This document shows, in pieces, positions 26,323 through 35,656 of a stretch of 64,000 bases of DNA. Within the stretch, counting starts at the first letter, position 1. Each line of letters begins with the position of its first letter. Where the stretch lies: the NCBI GenBank assembly GCA_009268125.1, contig WBOU01000001.1, positions 1 through 64,000 on the forward strand, given 5' to 3'. The DNA is from Chloroflexia bacterium SDU3-3 (GTDB lineage Bacteria; Chloroflexota; Chloroflexia; Chloroflexales; Roseiflexaceae). Position numbers and translations under genes: made by a program. The notes beneath the pieces are model-generated. The model had not been told where the DNA came from. It made no database searches and saw only the letters and a list, made by a program, of their open reading frames with translations.

Positions 26323-27087
26323 TTACCCGCGCTGGATGATCTCCAGAACCAGCTGCTCGTAGGTCTCTTTGCGCGGCAGATTCAGCTCGATGTGCAGCCG
26401 ACGGCGCAGGGCGATGGTCGGCTGGCCAGTCTTCTGGTTGATGGCGGGCTGCTCCTCGACCTGCCAGAACAGGCCGACGCCGCGATTCTGCCAGTTGGGC
26501 AGATTCTTCACGTTGATGCCACCTGCGAACAGCAGCTCGTTCTTGTCGGCGATCGACAAGCTCTTGAGCCGTTCAGCCGCCTCGCGCCGACTTGCACCCT
26601 GGCCGCGCAGCATCCAGTAGCAGTGGCCGTTGAGCGCGTTGCGATGCGCGTCCTCCTCGCGCCAGCGGAAGTAGTCGACCACGCGCTCTAGGCTGGGCAG
26701 CTGGGCCACGCGGCAGTCGAACGCGGCGATATCGCCCAGCAGCAGCGAGCACTTGGCGCTGGCCTCGCCCGCCAGAATCGAGTTGATCTTGCGCATCTTA
26801 CGCCCGAAGGTCTCCTCGCTGGGGTCGAGCAGCAGCGAGATCTTGTCGCTCTGGGTGTAGCCATAGATCACGCGAAAGCCACACTGCATCAGGTGGGCGG
26901 TGGTCTCGACCATATAGTCGCGCATGCGCTCGTCAAAGGGGGCCTGAAACTGGTGGGTCTCCTTGGTGAGCCGCGTAAAGTTGCGCCCGTCGAGCCGCAC
27001 CACAAGAAAGATACCGGGCAGGGCATACTGATCGTTTATGGTCTCAAACACGCGCATCTGTCGGTCAAGCTCATCAAAGTGCATCAT
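26323..27087 (-). CDS. Thg1-like 3'-5' RNA polymerase (tRNA repair)
   Basis: Protein of 254 residues related to tRNA-His guanylyltransferase. Bacterial Thg1-like proteins add nucleotides in the 3'-to-5' direction to repair 5'-truncated tRNAs. Metal-binding Asp residues are seen as D33 in RLDGRNFTRL and D81 in YGYTQSDKISLL; the residue after D81 is Lys where eukaryotic Thg1 has Glu. The start at 27087 lies 14 bases inside the end of the upstream kinase gene, with GGAG before it, so translation is coupled. An ATG 3 bases on is a possible alternative. The overlap with a polynucleotide-kinase-like gene suggests that the kinase prepares a 5' end for this enzyme. Substrate RNA is unknown. Confidence 0.88.
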   Translation of the reverse strand: MMHFDELDRQMRVFETINDQYALPGIFLVVRLDGRNFTRLTKETHQFQAPFDERMRDYMVETTAHLMQCGFRVIYGYTQSDKISLLLDPSEETFGRKMRKINSILAGEASAKCSLLLGDIAAFDCRVAQLPSLERVVDYFRWREEDAHRNALNGHCYWMLRGQGASRREAAERLKSLSIADKNELLFAGGINVKNLPNWQNRGVGLFWQVEEQPAINQKTGQPTIALRRRLHIELNLPRKETYEQLVLEIIQRG

Positions 27088-27547
27088 TCCACTCCTGGGT
27101 GACAAATTCGCCGGTATCGTCAATGAAAATGTAGAACAGTTCTACGAACCCCTCGCTTTTTTGCGGCGGCTCAAGGCGCTTGTGGGTGCCTGCGATCGCC
27201 TGGGCGGGGATGGGCCGGGCGCGCTGGCGCTGCTGGTTGCGCCGCAGGGCGTCGGCGATGCGCGACTGGAAGTAGCACCCGGCCACTGGCAGCCCGGCGG
27301 CCTGCGCGGCGGCTAGGTAGCGGGCGCGATCCTCGCGGGTGATATTGGTGTTGTCGATCACGAAGGGCTGCTGGGCCTCGATGCATGCCGCTAGCAAAAT
27401 CCGCTCGCGGTGGCGGGTCTTGAGCATGTCGAGGTTGATGCGAATGTGGGTGTCGCTCAGGTATCGCTGGTAGAAGGTTGACTTCCCAACGGCCTGAATG
27501 CCCGTGAACATGATAGCTGGGGATGCTTGAAGCCGTGCGATCGTCAT
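27074..27547 (-). CDS. P-loop polynucleotide-kinase-like protein
   Basis: Protein of 157 residues of the AAA_33/T4 PNK kinase group. The Walker A motif is GIQAVGKST (K22), and a PNK-like DNTNITREDRARYLAAA follows near residue 62. The lid region has basic QQRQRARPIPAQAIAGTHKRLEPP. The C-terminal segment FVELFYIFIDDTGEFV is typical for stand-alone members. It would phosphorylate 5'-OH ends of RNA or DNA with ATP; small-molecule substrates are possible. Its end overlaps the Thg1-like gene by 14 bases. No phosphatase or ligase domain is fused. This is the first gene of the leftward cassette. Confidence 0.85.
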   Translation of the reverse strand: MTIARLQASPAIMFTGIQAVGKSTFYQRYLSDTHIRINLDMLKTRHRERILLAACIEAQQPFVIDNTNITREDRARYLAAAQAAGLPVAGCYFQSRIADALRRNQQRQRARPIPAQAIAGTHKRLEPPQKSEGFVELFYIFIDDTGEFVTQEWNDAL

Positions 27548-30390: not shown

Positions 30391-31251
30391 ATGCTCCCTC
30401 CCGCATTCTACCACCAGCTCACGCCCGAGCAGTGCATAGGGCTGTTTGCCCAGCTGCCGATCCCGCTCACGATCTACGACGCCCAGGGCGACGTGGTCGG
30501 CTATAATCAGGCCCACATCGCGCTATTCGAGCTGACACCCGAGATCTTGGCGCGCGGGTTCAACATGATCACTGACCCGCAGCTGGCCGCTATCGGCAGC
30601 GGCGAGCTGCACCGCCGCGTGATGCAGGGCGAGACGATCGTGCTGCCGCCGCACCTCTTCGAGCTCCACGAGGGCGGCGTCGATGTGGCGCGCTGGACCG
30701 AGGCGACCTACTTCCCGCTGCGCGACGGCGAGGGCAGGGTGACGCACCTTGTCGCGATGCTGCGCGATATCACCGAGACCATCCACCAGCAGCGCTCGAT
30801 CGAGCAGGTGCAGCAGGAGATCGACGCGGCGCGGCAGGAGCTTTCGGAGCAGCAGACGACGCTGGAGGAGCTGTCGACGCCAGTGATCCAGGTGTGGGAT
30901 GGCATCCTGGCGCTGCCGCTGATCGGCGCGATCGATAGCCGCCGCGCCATGCAGGTCACCGATAGCCTGCTGACCTCGATCGGCACCTACCAGGCCGACA
31001 GTGTGATCATCGATATTACCGGCATCCCGGTGGTGGACACGCAGGTGGCGGCCTACCTGCTGCAGGCGGCGCGGGCCAGCGCGCTACTGGGCTGCGATGT
31101 GGCGCTGGTGGGCATCGGCCCCGAGATCGCGCAGACGCTCATCCAGCTGGGCGTCGACCTCCAGTCGATCCACACGCTGGCCAATCTGCAGGCGGGCATC
31201 GCCTGGGCCTTCGCGCGCCACGGCATGCAGGTGGTGGCGCGCAAGCCCTAG
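30391..31251 (+). CDS. PAS-STAS protein (RsbR-like)
   Basis: Protein of 286 residues. A PAS domain (about 15-130, ending MLRDITETIHQQ) is joined by a coiled coil (about 132-162) to a STAS domain (about 163-280). The STAS core VIIDITGIPVVDTQVAAYL places T217 at the usual phosphoacceptor position. Such proteins are subunits of stressosome-like switches that bind an RsbS/RsbT-type partner. No RsbS, RsbT or sigma factor gene is nearby, so it is an orphan. The start at 30391 has an excellent AAAAGGAG; an upstream in-frame ATG does not. Confidence 0.9.
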   Translation: MLPPAFYHQLTPEQCIGLFAQLPIPLTIYDAQGDVVGYNQAHIALFELTPEILARGFNMITDPQLAAIGSGELHRRVMQGETIVLPPHLFELHEGGVDVARWTEATYFPLRDGEGRVTHLVAMLRDITETIHQQRSIEQVQQEIDAARQELSEQQTTLEELSTPVIQVWDGILALPLIGAIDSRRAMQVTDSLLTSIGTYQADSVIIDITGIPVVDTQVAAYLLQAARASALLGCDVALVGIGPEIAQTLIQLGVDLQSIHTLANLQAGIAWAFARHGMQVVARKP

Positions 31252-31284
31252 CCGTGCCGTGCGCCTGATCGTCAGTGCTCGTTT

Positions 31285-31316
31285 ACCGGCCTGGGTACGC
31301 CCAGGCCGGTTTTGTT
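31285..31316 (+). terminator. Rho-independent terminator
   Basis: An 11-bp perfect stem (31285-31295 and 31300-31310) with a TACG loop and then TTTGTT, downstream of the PAS-STAS gene. Confidence 0.9.
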
Positions 31317-31375
31317 GTGGGCGAAATCCGGCATTCTGATCAATAGAATATGAATTTTCTGTCATAAAAAAGCGC

Positions 31376-31426
31376 TTGACTTAGTGTCTATATGACATTA
31401 AGATGTTAGTGTGAATTTAACACTAA
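31376..31426 (+). promoter_or_regulatory. Promoter with two 21-bp palindromic operators
   Basis: TTGACT (31376-31381) and TAAGAT (31399-31404), 17 bases apart, form a strong promoter for the J-domain operon. Two palindromes of the form TTAGTGT-N7-ACACTAA overlap it: 31381-31401 (one arm mismatch), which covers the spacer, and 31406-31426, which covers the start of the transcript. Their centres are 25 bp apart. This is the layout of a promoter shut off by a dimeric repressor bound twice. The regulator is not encoded nearby; NrtR-type or similar factors are guesses. Confidence 0.82.
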
Positions 31427-31434
31427 GGTGAGCT

Positions 31435-32511
31435 ATGAACACACCGCTGGAAAACCTTTGGGAGCAGATCCGCCACGCCACCAGCGCGGATGCGGTCTTC
31501 GGGCCGATCGGGGCGGGCGACATGGCCGCGCTGAAGCGCCGCTACCGCGAGCTGGCGCAGATCGCCCACCCCGACCATAACCCGCGCCAGCAGGCGCTGG
31601 CGCAGCAGGTGTTTCAGTCGCTGTCGCAGTGGTACCAGCTGGCCCAGGCCGAGCTGGCCGATGGCCGCTATGGCGCGCCGCCTCGGCTGCACGTGGCGGG
31701 GCGGCTGCACCACTACGTGGGCACGGGCGAGCCATGGTCGGGCGACCTGTGCCACCTATTCCCCGCCGACGCCGACGGCACGCCGGTGCTGCTGAAGATG
31801 GCGGGCGACCCGCACAACCGCGACCTGCTGCTGGCCGAGGCCGAGGCCCTGGACACGCTGGATGCGGCCCTGGCGGGCAGGCCGGTGCGCGCCCACTTCC
31901 CCACCCTGATCGAGCAGCTGCTGGTCGAGGATGAGCATGGGGTGATGCGCCAGACCAACGTGCTGCGCCGTGAGCGCAGCGTGGCGTCGCTGGCCGAGGT
32001 GCGGCGGGCCTACCCGCGCGGCGTGCACCCCGCCGATGCGGCCTGGATGTTCAACCGCATGCTGGCGGCGCTGGCGCTGGCCCACGACCACGGCCTAGTG
32101 CATGGTGCGGTGCTGCCCGAGCACGTACTGGTGCGGCCCGACGACCACAACGGCATCCTGATCGACTGGTGCTATAGCGTGGGGATGGGCCAGCCCATCC
32201 GCGCGATCAGCCCGGCGAACTATGGCATGTACCCGCCCGAGGTGCTGGCCAAAGAGCCAGCGACGGCGGCCACCGACATCTACCTTGCGGCACGGACGAT
32301 GGTTGTGCTGCTTGGTGGCAATGGAGTTCAGCTGCCGAAAAGTGTGCCTGCGCCCATCCGCAACCTGCTGCAGTCCTGCCTCATTCCCTCGCCCATCCGC
32401 CGCGCCAACGATGCCTGGCAGCTGCTGGAGGACTTCCGCGAGGTGCTGGATGACTGCTATGGTCCGCCGACATTTCGCCCGTTTCGTATGCCGATCTCGG
32501 CTTTTGTGTAG
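31435..32511 (+). CDS. J-domain fused to a pseudokinase
   Basis: Protein of 358 residues. Residues about 8-75 form a J-domain with the HPD motif intact (H45-P46-D47 in IAHPDHN), so it should stimulate an Hsp70 ATPase. Residues about 80-345 look like a protein-kinase fold: K121 (VLLKMA) fits the ATP-binding lysine and D244 (LIDWC) the DFG aspartate. The catalytic loop reads HGAVLPEHV (223-231), where the catalytic HRD aspartate is Ala. It is therefore predicted to bind nucleotide or a partner but not to phosphorylate. The start has AAGGTGAG upstream and lies 8 bases after the second palindrome. It is the first gene of the operon with the vWA and PurA-like genes. Confidence 0.85.
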   Translation: MNTPLENLWEQIRHATSADAVFGPIGAGDMAALKRRYRELAQIAHPDHNPRQQALAQQVFQSLSQWYQLAQAELADGRYGAPPRLHVAGRLHHYVGTGEPWSGDLCHLFPADADGTPVLLKMAGDPHNRDLLLAEAEALDTLDAALAGRPVRAHFPTLIEQLLVEDEHGVMRQTNVLRRERSVASLAEVRRAYPRGVHPADAAWMFNRMLAALALAHDHGLVHGAVLPEHVLVRPDDHNGILIDWCYSVGMGQPIRAISPANYGMYPPEVLAKEPATAATDIYLAARTMVVLLGGNGVQLPKSVPAPIRNLLQSCLIPSPIRRANDAWQLLEDFREVLDDCYGPPTFRPFRMPISAFV

Positions 32512-32532
32512 ACATAAAATAAGGAGGCTGTC

Positions 32533-33519
32533 ATGGGAGGATCTTACTGGAGCGACGACGCCTACGCGGCACGCCAGAACCGCCGCTCGGCCACCGGGGC
32601 CACCGCGTTCACCTACGATGCCCACGTGCGCTCGACTGGCAAGGTGGAGGTTCACCCGCAGATGAACCCCTACGGCGTGACGCGCGAGAGCCGCGACAGC
32701 GACGCGCACCCCAGCTCGCTGGCGATCGCCGTGATCTTTGATGTGACCGGCTCGATGGGCAGCGTGCCGCGCACGCTGCAGACCAAGCTGGGCGCGCTGA
32801 TGCGCGTGCTGGTGCAGCGGGGCTATGTGGAGCACCCGCAGATCCTGTTCGGGGCGGTGGGCGATGCCTACTGCGACCAGGTGCCGCTGCAGATCGGCCA
32901 GTTCGAGTCGGGGCTGGAGATGGACGACGAGCTGGGCAAGATCTACATCGAGGGCGGCGGCGGCGGCCAGGTGTACGAGTCGTATGAGCTGGCGATGTAC
33001 ATGATGGCGCGGCACACCTCGATCGACTGCTACGAGAAGCGCGGACACAAGGGCTACCTGTTCACCATCGGCGACGAGCACCCCTACGCGTCGATCAGCC
33101 GCAAGCAGGTGGCGTCCGTGATCGGCGACCGGCTGCAGGCCGACCTGCCGCTGCCCAAGCTGCTGGCCGAGCTGCACGAGCGCTATGAGCACTTCCACAT
33201 CATCCCCACCAACACCAGCCACGGTGGCGACAAAGCCATCCAGCAGGGCTGGCAGAAGCTGCTGGGCGAGCGTGTGCTGATGCTGGCCGACGAGGGCGCG
33301 GTCTGCGAGACGGTGGCGCTGGCCATCGGCCTGAGCGAGGGCGTGGTGGGCAGCCTGAAGGATGCTGGCGACGACCTGGTGGCCTCGGGCTATGACGACA
33401 GCGCGGTGGCTACCGCGTCGGCGGCGCTGGTGCCCTACGCATCCAAGCACGGTGGGGCCACGCGCACTAAAGGTCTGCTTGGCCTCGCATCGATGCTGAA
33501 CCTGGGCGGTCGGCTGTAG
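32533..33519 (+). CDS. vWA (MIDAS) protein
   Basis: Protein of 328 residues with a von Willebrand A-type fold. The metal-site motif is FDVTGSMG (D70, T72, S74), a DxTxS form of DxSxS, after an N-terminal stretch rich in charged and aromatic residues. Other notable parts are a glycine run (EGGGGGQVYESY), the region GYLFTIGDEHPYASIS and HFHIIPTNTSHGG. No signal peptide or membrane span: intracellular. A perfect AAGGAGG precedes the ATG, suggesting strong translation. vWA proteins of this kind bind partners through Mg2+ and often work with chaperones or ATPases, which fits the J-domain gene 21 bp upstream. Its exact role is unknown. Confidence 0.85.
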   Translation: MGGSYWSDDAYAARQNRRSATGATAFTYDAHVRSTGKVEVHPQMNPYGVTRESRDSDAHPSSLAIAVIFDVTGSMGSVPRTLQTKLGALMRVLVQRGYVEHPQILFGAVGDAYCDQVPLQIGQFESGLEMDDELGKIYIEGGGGGQVYESYELAMYMMARHTSIDCYEKRGHKGYLFTIGDEHPYASISRKQVASVIGDRLQADLPLPKLLAELHERYEHFHIIPTNTSHGGDKAIQQGWQKLLGERVLMLADEGAVCETVALAIGLSEGVVGSLKDAGDDLVASGYDDSAVATASAALVPYASKHGGATRTKGLLGLASMLNLGGRL

Positions 33520-33528
33520 TTGCTTGAA

Positions 33529-33558
33529 AGCAGGTGTGGTTCAGCCGCCACACCTGCT
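33529..33558 (+). repeat. 11-bp hairpin between vWA and PurA-like genes
   Basis: AGCAGGTGTGG (33529-33539) pairs with CCACACCTGCT (33548-33558) around an 8-base loop. No T-run follows, so it more likely tunes expression of the third gene or stabilises the upstream mRNA than ends the operon. Its loop holds the TTCAGCCG motif found after other genes here. Confidence 0.6.
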
Positions 33559-33582
33559 CTTCCCAAAAAATGGAGCGCTGCG

Positions 33583-34911
33583 ATGGGCGATGTGTTTCTG
33601 ACGGTCGATCTGGGCTTTGGCGACGCGGGGAAGGGCGGCATCGTCGACTACCTGACGCGCGCCAGCGGGGCGCACACGGTGGTGCGCTACAATGGCGGCG
33701 CGCAGGCCGCGCACCGCGTGGTCGAGGGCGGGCGCGAGCATGTGTTCAGCCAGTTTGGCAGCGGCACGCTAGCAGGCGCTGCCACGCACCTCTCGCGATT
33801 CATGCTGGTGGAGCCGCTGGCCATGGAGTCCGAGGCCGCGCACCTGCGTCGCCTGGGCGTGGCCGAGCCGTTCGATCTCACCACAATCGATGCGCAGGCC
33901 CTGGTGATCACGCCGTTTCACCGCGCCACCAACCGGCTGCGCGAGCTGGCGCGCGGGCCTGGCCGCCACGGCAGCTGCGGCATCGGCGTGGGCGAGGCGG
34001 CGGCTGATGCGCTGGCCCACGCCGCGCACGCGGTGCGCATGGGCGACATGCACCACCCCAACGCGCTGTATGCCAAGCTATGTTTCCTGCGCGATCTGGC
34101 GCTGGCCAAGCTGCGCACCTTCGAGGATCGCATCCTCCCGAGTGCGCAGGCCGAGGCCGAGCTGGAGCTGCTGCACGACCCAGACTGGGCCGACTGGCTG
34201 CTGCCCGCTTACCGCGATTTCGCCGCGCGCGCCCAGGTGGTGCCCGGCGAGCATGTACGAGGGCTGCTGGCCCGCCCTGGCGCGGTGATCTTCGAGGGGG
34301 CGCAGGGCGTGCTGCTCGATGAGTGGCGCGGCTTCCACCCCTACACCACCTGGAGCACCACCACGCTGGCCAACGCCGACGCGCTGCTGGCCGAGGCAGG
34401 GCATACTGGCGCGGTGACGCGCTTGGGCCTGACGCGGGGCTACGCCACCCGCCACGGCGCAGGCCCGTTCGTGAGCGAGGATGCCGGGCTGACGGCGGCG
34501 CTGCCGGATGCGCGCAATGGCCACGGCACGTGGCAGGGCGGCTTCCGCGCGGGATGGCTGGACATGGTGATGCTGCGCTACGCGCTGGATGTGGTGGGGC
34601 CGCTGGATGGCTTGGCGGTGACATGCCTGGATCGGCTGGCGGATCTGGGCGAGCTGCGTGTCTGCCAGCGCTACACCTGCGCGGGGCGCGACCTGGAGCG
34701 GCTGGCGATCTCGCCCGACCCGCGCGACCTGGCCCACCAGGAGCGGCTGACGATGCAGCTTCTCGCCTGTGTGCCCAAGCATGTGGCGCTGGCATCGGCG
34801 GATGCGCTGATCGATCATCTTGAGCGCGATCTAGATATTCCTGTTGCGATCACATCATATGGTTCAGACGCCACACGGAAACAGCAGATGCAGCCATTTT
34901 TTCAACGGTAG
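33583..34911 (+). CDS. Divergent adenylosuccinate synthetase-like enzyme
   Basis: Protein of 442 residues with the PurA fold. The P-loop region reads GFGDAGKGG: the general base D14 and K17 of PurA are kept, but PurA's following Glu is Ala. The IMP-site histidine is H44 (GGAQAAHRV). FEGAQGVLLD and TRHGAGPF are conserved. The aspartate-binding loop, arginine-rich in PurA (TTGRRRR), is GTWQGGFRAGW near residue 317, and the guanine-recognition TKxD is TCLD (347-350). These changes suggest a changed amino-acid or nucleotide substrate. Phage PurZ enzymes differ in the opposite way (the base Asp is lost). The start at 33583 has GGAG upstream; an upstream TTG is rejected. Its place beside J-domain and vWA genes argues against housekeeping purine synthesis. 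Confidence 0.85.
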   Translation: MGDVFLTVDLGFGDAGKGGIVDYLTRASGAHTVVRYNGGAQAAHRVVEGGREHVFSQFGSGTLAGAATHLSRFMLVEPLAMESEAAHLRRLGVAEPFDLTTIDAQALVITPFHRATNRLRELARGPGRHGSCGIGVGEAAADALAHAAHAVRMGDMHHPNALYAKLCFLRDLALAKLRTFEDRILPSAQAEAELELLHDPDWADWLLPAYRDFAARAQVVPGEHVRGLLARPGAVIFEGAQGVLLDEWRGFHPYTTWSTTTLANADALLAEAGHTGAVTRLGLTRGYATRHGAGPFVSEDAGLTAALPDARNGHGTWQGGFRAGWLDMVMLRYALDVVGPLDGLAVTCLDRLADLGELRVCQRYTCAGRDLERLAISPDPRDLAHQERLTMQLLACVPKHVALASADALIDHLERDLDIPVAITSYGSDATRKQQMQPFFQR

Positions 34912-34927
34912 CCGCTCTTCTTTTTGC

Positions 34928-34963
34928 AAACGGGCCGCATGGTTTAGCCCATGCGGCCCGTTT
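34928..34963. terminator. Bidirectional terminator
   Basis: A 15-bp perfect stem (34928-34942 and 34949-34963) with A-run and T-run at its ends, between the convergent PurA-like and HExxH genes. Confidence 0.9.
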
Positions 34964-34969
34964 CTGCCG

Positions 34970-35656
34970 CTACCAGCGGTACACATCACGCAGCGTGAAG
35001 ACCAGGATCGCCGCCGAGATCGCAGTCCACACCACCGCCCACAGCAGCGCGGGCAGGCCGGTGGCGGCGGCCATGATCTGGGCGTCGGTGTTGACCTGGC
35101 TCTGCGACGAGAGGAAGATCAGGCCGATCAGGCTGTTGAAGCCATCGAAGATCAGCTCGACCGCCAGCACCAGCAGCAGGGTCTCGGCCCAGCGGCTGGG
35201 CAGGCGCTGGGCCGCTGCGATCAGCGCCGCCGCTAGCAGCAGCCCGCTGGCGATGCCGAACAGGCTGCGCACAAACAGCAGGCAGAGCACGCCCAGTATC
35301 ACGCCTAGCCCCATCAGCAGGGTGCGCGCCGAGACGTGGCGGGCCGAGAGCCGCAGCAGTAGGCCGCCGAACACCGCGCTGCCCACATAGCCCGCGCTAG
35401 TGATAAACCAGCGCACCCCACCGGCGGAAAGCGCGAGGCCAGAGAGATCGGCCTCGACCACAAATTCCTGAAACCTGCCGCCGGTGATGACCGCCGCGAT
35501 GCCGTGGCAGATCTCGTGGATGAAGGTGCCGAATAGGCGGAACGGGTACGATACCCAGCTGAGCATCGGGATCTGCCAGGTGATCAGGATGACCAGCGTG
35601 ACGAGTAGGACGCTGCCGATCTCGCGGCGGTGCCATGTTGAAAATGAGCGTGACAT
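34970..35656 (-). CDS. M50-type membrane protein with HExxH
   Basis: Protein of 228 residues with about six hydrophobic segments. FGTFIHEICHGIAAVITGG carries a zinc-protease HExxH motif (HEICH, near residues 47-51) at the end of the first span, like the M50B/SpoIVFB-like membrane peptidases. A second-half aspartate that could complete the site is seen in the C-terminal FDGFNSLIGL. The family is widespread and largely uncharacterised in bacteria; the substrate is unknown. Ends 6 bp from the shared terminator. Confidence 0.8.
   Translation of the reverse strand: MSRSFSTWHRREIGSVLLVTLVILITWQIPMLSWVSYPFRLFGTFIHEICHGIAAVITGGRFQEFVVEADLSGLALSAGGVRWFITSAGYVGSAVFGGLLLRLSARHVSARTLLMGLGVILGVLCLLFVRSLFGIASGLLLAAALIAAAQRLPSRWAETLLLVLAVELIFDGFNSLIGLIFLSSQSQVNTDAQIMAAATGLPALLWAVVWTAISAAILVFTLRDVYRW

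Follow-up and report, generated by a model that had tools for sequence, protein, structure and literature searches.

The window analysed here is a 64,000-nucleotide stretch of the Chloroflexia bacterium SDU3-3 (contig WBOU01000001.1), and the term is used below for that whole stretch. Among its mechanically called open reading frames (ORFs), three in the same direction encode a J-domain/kinase-like protein (J), a vWA-like protein (V) and a PurA-like enzyme (P). We tentatively propose that this J-V-P operon (the cassette) belongs to the NrtR regulon as an accessory member, and that the operon responds to depletion of nicotinamide adenine dinucleotide (NAD) by making or repairing a nucleotide. 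Phages have taken up the cassette as well. In the conflict between bacteria and phages, depletion of NAD is a central weapon. If the proposal is true, a host cassette placed under an NAD/ADP-ribose switch and carried by phages as well would represent a new enzyme route in this conflict. Three large protein families, one of them nameless, would thereby gain a function that can be tested directly, as would genes of about 190 sequenced mycobacteriophages. No published description of the J-V-P unit was found in a literature search; an earlier mention as an NrtR target is possible.

Operators of the NrtR type precede the cassette

Two palindromes were found upstream of J, where 0.21 matches were expected per 64 kb, and both fit the NrtR-type operator TTAGTGT-N7-ACACTAA. 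With one base relaxed in each half (TTARTGT...ACAYTAA) the motif occurred three times in the 6.76-Mb genome, and the reversed control did not occur at all. Two of the three sites are those at the cassette promoter; the third lies directly 5' of an operon consisting of nrtR, an isochorismatase-family (nicotinamidase-like) gene and kptA. The genome has a second nrtR, which stands at the head of nadA-nadB-nadC. In each of the 18 distinct Chloroflexota loci (L055 and L037 being one genome), a tandem pair of operators, 23-26 bp apart, was present 5' of the first gene of the cassette, and the scan of these loci gave a single stray site elsewhere. In relatives the motif also stands 5' of nadA-nadB, pncA, pncB and nrtR, the identities of which were confirmed by Pfam, and in one of them the nrtR operon preceded by the motif includes a glutamine-dependent NAD synthase.

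In Chloroflexota the gene of the regulator is located away from the cassette. In many bacterial loci a gene of the NrtR type, coding for a Nudix domain plus winged helix (NrtR_WHD), stands beside it, and in 68 of the 74 non-Chloroflexota bacterial loci the distance is at most 5.2 kb. The cassette palindromes of Rhodococcus (GTTTTAGT-N7-ACTAAAAC), Tsukamurella and Allorhizobium have other sequences and the same 8-N7-8 geometry. The experimentally mapped NrtR site of M. smegmatis is GTTTTCGA-N7-TCGAAAAC, and NrtR is released from it by ADP-ribose (PMC6800001). Since the operators are shared with nrtR and NAD genes, and an NrtR gene lies beside the cassette in other bacteria, the operon is predicted to belong to the NAD/ADP-ribose (NrtR) regulon, with NrtR as the probable repressor. 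It resembles the M. smegmatis nrtR/nadABC regulon (PMC6800001) in the 8-N7-8 palindromes, the Nudix-winged-helix regulator and the co-targeted NAD genes, but it differs from it as a new target operon lacking a known NAD enzyme.

The operon that shares the operator of the cassette (L211:7796-9847, contig C4 of the source genome) deserves a separate remark. Its nrtR lies at L211:9074-9814. Its kptA codes for an NAD-using RNA 2'-phosphotransferase, and the operator would tie RNA repair to NAD control.

P has the fold and catalytic residues of PurA and an altered substrate site

P matched the Pfam family Adenylsucc_synt (206 bits, E 7.6e-61) and PHROG 1211 (E 9e-71), which bears the name '2-aminooxy adenylosuccinate synthetase'. 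Its structural model (predicted local distance difference test, pLDDT, 95.5) has the PurA fold, with a template-modelling (TM) score of 0.81 to E. coli PurA (1cg3), and the E. coli mutant structures R143L and R303L were also among the matches. P scored below the equivalog cut-offs for PurA (169 versus 402 bits for NCBIfam, 141 versus 395 for TIGR00184). A separate, full-scoring PurA (563 bits) is encoded elsewhere in the genome. P is thus not the sole PurA of the organism; had it been so, and able to complement a purA mutant, the system idea of the first-pass annotation would have fallen.

In PurA the group Asp13, Lys16, His41, Gln224 and Asp333 does the chemistry, in which the 6-oxo group is phosphorylated by GTP, and the group comprising Asn38, Thr129 and Thr300-305 holds the phosphate of inosine monophosphate (IMP) and the aspartate. 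When 168 members of the P family were aligned against 21 canonical PurA sequences, the catalytic Asp13, Lys16, His41 and Gln224 and the guanine-binding Asp333 were found to be kept in 166-168 of the 168. The contacts to the 5'-phosphate of IMP were not: Asn38 is replaced by Gln in 167 and Thr129 by Cys or Val in 165 homologues, and Arg143 of PurA aligns with His146 of P. The aspartate loop (Thr300/Arg303/Arg305) is also lost, with an aromatic residue for Thr300 in 153 sequences, Gln for Thr301 in 164, a variable residue at 303 (Arg in PurA) and one residue deleted at 305 in 168/168. Because the catalytic residues are conserved and those of the IMP-phosphate and aspartate sites replaced, P has probably kept the chemistry and changed the recognition of substrate and amine. 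As this remodelling extends across the whole family, P appears to be neither simply a PurA nor a PurZ. Its earlier description as divergent and PurA-like was confirmed. A motif for PurB, as a dedicated partner, was sought in the 174 V loci described below and found in only two, unlinked to the cassette.

V is a vWA protein and J carries a J-domain

No match to V was found in Pfam. Its AlphaFold model (pLDDT 91, predicted TM score 0.90) was matched by Foldseek to integrin/vWA I-domains (E 4e-6), and the DxTGS motif of the metal-ion-dependent adhesion site (MIDAS; D70, T72, S74 and D181) is invariant, so that the vWA assignment, at first a guess from the sequence, could be upheld. V also matched PHROG 2971 (E 2e-64). 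The Met-Gly start (32533-32538 in the window) is present in 171 of the 174 V homologues.

J matched the Pfam families DnaJ (E 1.3e-5) and Pkinase (E 0.0011), both under the curated cut-offs, and PHROG 3043 (E 2.7e-44). The HPD motif of the J-domain is intact and is present in about 145 of 154 relatives. At the position of the catalytic Asp of the HRD motif, 146 of the 154 have Ala or Gly and one has Asp, which marks the kinase fold as a predicted pseudokinase. Since in several Chloroflexota loci the operators directly precede V, J is, by this arrangement, predicted to be dispensable to the cassette.

V and P form a linked unit in bacteria and phages

Profile searches were run over 174 V loci. 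Of these, 80 belong to named bacterial genomes and another 80 to predicted viral contigs (IMG/VR entries, which are predicted viruses and in many cases fragmentary); the rest come from relatives, plasmids and one phage. P was present in 168 and J in 154 of the 174, almost always in the order J-V-P. The gene order is thus not peculiar to this genome; had it been found only here, the system idea of the first-pass annotation would likewise have fallen. V and P are strictly linked, and J usually goes with them. All three genes occur in the same order in about 190 Bxz1-like mycobacteriophages, whose homologues of J, V and P are found under PHROG 3043, 2971 and 1211; in these PHROG entries V is left without a function and the unit itself undescribed. 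V-P is carried by Rhizobium and Vibrio phages, and the cassette was also found in many predicted large phages. Among 60 relatives of the source organism nine have P with V, eight of these with J as well, and the distribution in Chloroflexota is patchy (14/300 genomes).

In the P tree all Chloroflexota copies form one clade, and phage and bacterial copies are mixed, with at least five changes between phages and bacteria. Between the family and PurA lies a long branch with full support, 1.41 substitutions per site in length. None of the genes flanking the cassette in the window recurs near other copies, and the idea of a defence island was rejected on this ground.

Proposed role and alternatives

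Because it would be switched by a regulator of NAD synthesis, the cassette is probably a response to the loss of NAD rather than a defence system that stands alone. By established NrtR biology, cleavage of NAD and the consequent rise of ADP-ribose would take NrtR off the DNA and turn the operon on. To judge from its active-site residues, P would use GTP to phosphorylate, and thereby activate, a carbonyl, most likely the purine 6-oxo group, of a nucleotide whose 5' end differs from the free phosphate of IMP; the phosphate would then be displaced by an amine other than aspartate, or by aspartate bound differently. V, by its fold a Mg2+-dependent vWA binding module, may serve P or the substrate of P as an adaptor or chaperone, and J, with an Hsp70-recruiting J-domain and a dead kinase fold, may be an adaptor/chaperone scaffold for the same partners. 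The likely purpose would be to repair or build anew a nucleotide belonging to the NAD/adenylate pool under NAD depletion. Phages might carry the cassette, as a conjecture, for the same benefit in infection, when NAD-depleting immunity acts.

Several observations weigh against this proposal. In the five actinomycetes examined, each genome has essentially a single copy of the cassette-linked operator, so NrtR there seems to serve the cassette alone. Phage copies are nearly all devoid of NrtR (3/81 have it), so the function of the cassette does not depend on NAD control. Genes for NAPRTase/NAMPT were found in just 4 of 42 cassette-bearing phage records, hence phages do not generally pair the cassette with that NAD-salvage enzyme. 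The substrate-site assignments in P depend on alignment to PurA and on established PurA biochemistry. Two other candidates for a link with NAD salvage in phages were discarded: by Pfam, the 'NMN adenylyltransferase/NUDIX' gene of the Rhizobium phage TM39 is no more than NUDIX, and the phosphoribosyltransferase is ComF-like.

A more specific form of the proposal is doubtful: P may be a new GTP-dependent nucleotide ligase acting on an NAD- or ADP-ribose-type nucleotide and not on IMP plus aspartate, with the N-terminal glycine of V possibly serving as amine or docking element, in an NAD-stress pathway common to bacteria and large phages. A direct rebuilding by P of NAD or of ADP-ribose-type dinucleotides, as a counter-measure of phage and host functionally similar to the NARP pathways, is unlikely. 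NrtR control implies that the operon is expressed while NAD is being degraded, cassette-bearing phages may face NAD-depleting immunity, and the loss of the IMP-phosphate pocket is compatible with a dinucleotide, but PurA chemistry targets the purine and not the nicotinamide-ribose bond.

The first-pass annotation favoured an inducible stress or conflict system, for example an anti-phage one. The picture of a conserved, inducible and (by prediction) tightly repressed nucleotide-enzyme unit with two chaperone- or adaptor-type partners stood up; the anti-phage part did not. In a host conflict system J and V would sense infection and P would poison or modify nucleotides, as might be suspected from the patchy distribution, the exchange between phages and bacteria and the joint occurrence of vWA proteins and Nudix-type regulators in predicted anti-ADP-ribosylation systems (PMC9503650). 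We consider this rather unlikely: no PADLOC family was matched by V or P, and J matched only generic kinase domains (of MkoA, PD-T4-6 and mad6), the complete cassette is present in hundreds of phage genomes, it is co-regulated with NAD synthesis, and no effector, nuclease or toxin is common to the loci.

That P is an ordinary extra PurA isozyme, raising the AMP supply for NAD synthesis, is improbable. Such a role would suit the retained fold and catalytic residues, the co-regulation with nad genes and the ATP consumed in NAD synthesis, but not the replacement of the Asn38/Thr129 contacts and the Thr300-Arg303/Arg305 loop in essentially the whole family, the presence of V as an obligate and of J as a usual partner, or the length of the branch from PurA. 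A PurZ-type enzyme for a modified phage DNA base, to which the PHROG name and the carriage by phages might point, is highly improbable and was rejected on score (31.5 bits against a cut-off of 300) and fold (PurZ structures rank far below PurA); moreover, most bacterial copies belong to cellular operons that have NrtR or its operators.

Comparison with described systems

The nearest described kind are the predicted ADP-ribosylglycohydrolase (ARG)-centric ADP-ribose response operons, which combine a Nudix regulator with a vWA chaperone (PMC9503650, section 3.8). They share with the cassette a predicted ADP-ribose-sensing Nudix regulator, a vWA protein and occurrence as scattered operons. Unlike them, the cassette has no ADP-ribosylglycohydrolase (none was found near it in the 15 genomes examined, and the nearest in the source genome is about 186 kb away), and a PurA-like enzyme and a J/pseudokinase are not mentioned in section 3.8 of that paper. 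Six genes of the ADP-ribosylglycohydrolase family are present in the source genome (contigs C1, C14, C15 and C20).

The phage NAD reconstitution pathways NARP1/2 (PMC12774641) would be similar, as a hypothesis, in being a phage-borne answer to NAD depletion; the enzymes differ, and restoration of NAD by the cassette is hypothetical.

Features of the locus and neighbouring genes

The features are collected in Table 1. The three genes in one direction, and the promoter overlapped by two palindromes, had been described at the outset, and both held, the latter by promoter shuffling and the palindrome count. The mechanical ORF of P opens at TTG 33520; the ATG at 33583, preceded by GGAGCG, is the likelier start. 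The hairpin downstream of P was not listed by the terminator scan, which demands T's 3' of the stem.

Table 1. Features of the J-V-P locus (positions in the window)
Feature	Position	Strand	Remark
Sigma-70-like promoter, TTGACT-N17-TAAGAT	31376..31404	+	No other promoter-like match within 31250-35050; expectation from shuffling 0.3
NrtR-type operator 1, TTAGTGTCTATATGACATTAA	31381..31401		Inside promoter spacer
NrtR-type operator 2, TTAGTGTGAATTTAACACTAA	31406..31426		Over predicted transcription start
Gene J, J-domain (HPD 45-47) fused to predicted pseudokinase (HRD to HGA)	31435..32511	+	
Gene V, vWA domain with MIDAS (D70-T72-S74, D181), N-terminal Met-Gly	32533..33519	+	
Perfect 11-bp hairpin between V and P	33529..33558	+	
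Gene P, divergent PurA-fold enzyme, predicted GTP-dependent	33583..34911	+	
Putative terminator, hairpin with 15-bp stem	34928..34963	+	Read by eye

Perfect hairpins of 8-14 bp, with sequences unrelated between genomes, also occupy the V-P gap in L040, L041, L042, L043, L045, L046, L050 and L054. Their recurrence suggests an intercistronic RNA element.

Elsewhere in the window a gene for a Thg1-family tRNA(His) guanylyltransferase adjoins a polynucleotide-kinase-like AAA_33 gene (26323-27547, minus strand), possibly as an RNA end-repair pair. A link with the cassette was rejected, Thg1-like matches being present in just two other loci and the kinase in none. In L159 and related phage contigs, genes for an R2K ATP-grasp protein, a HAD 'Swiss army knife' RNA-repair protein and a DNA ligase lie near the cassette.

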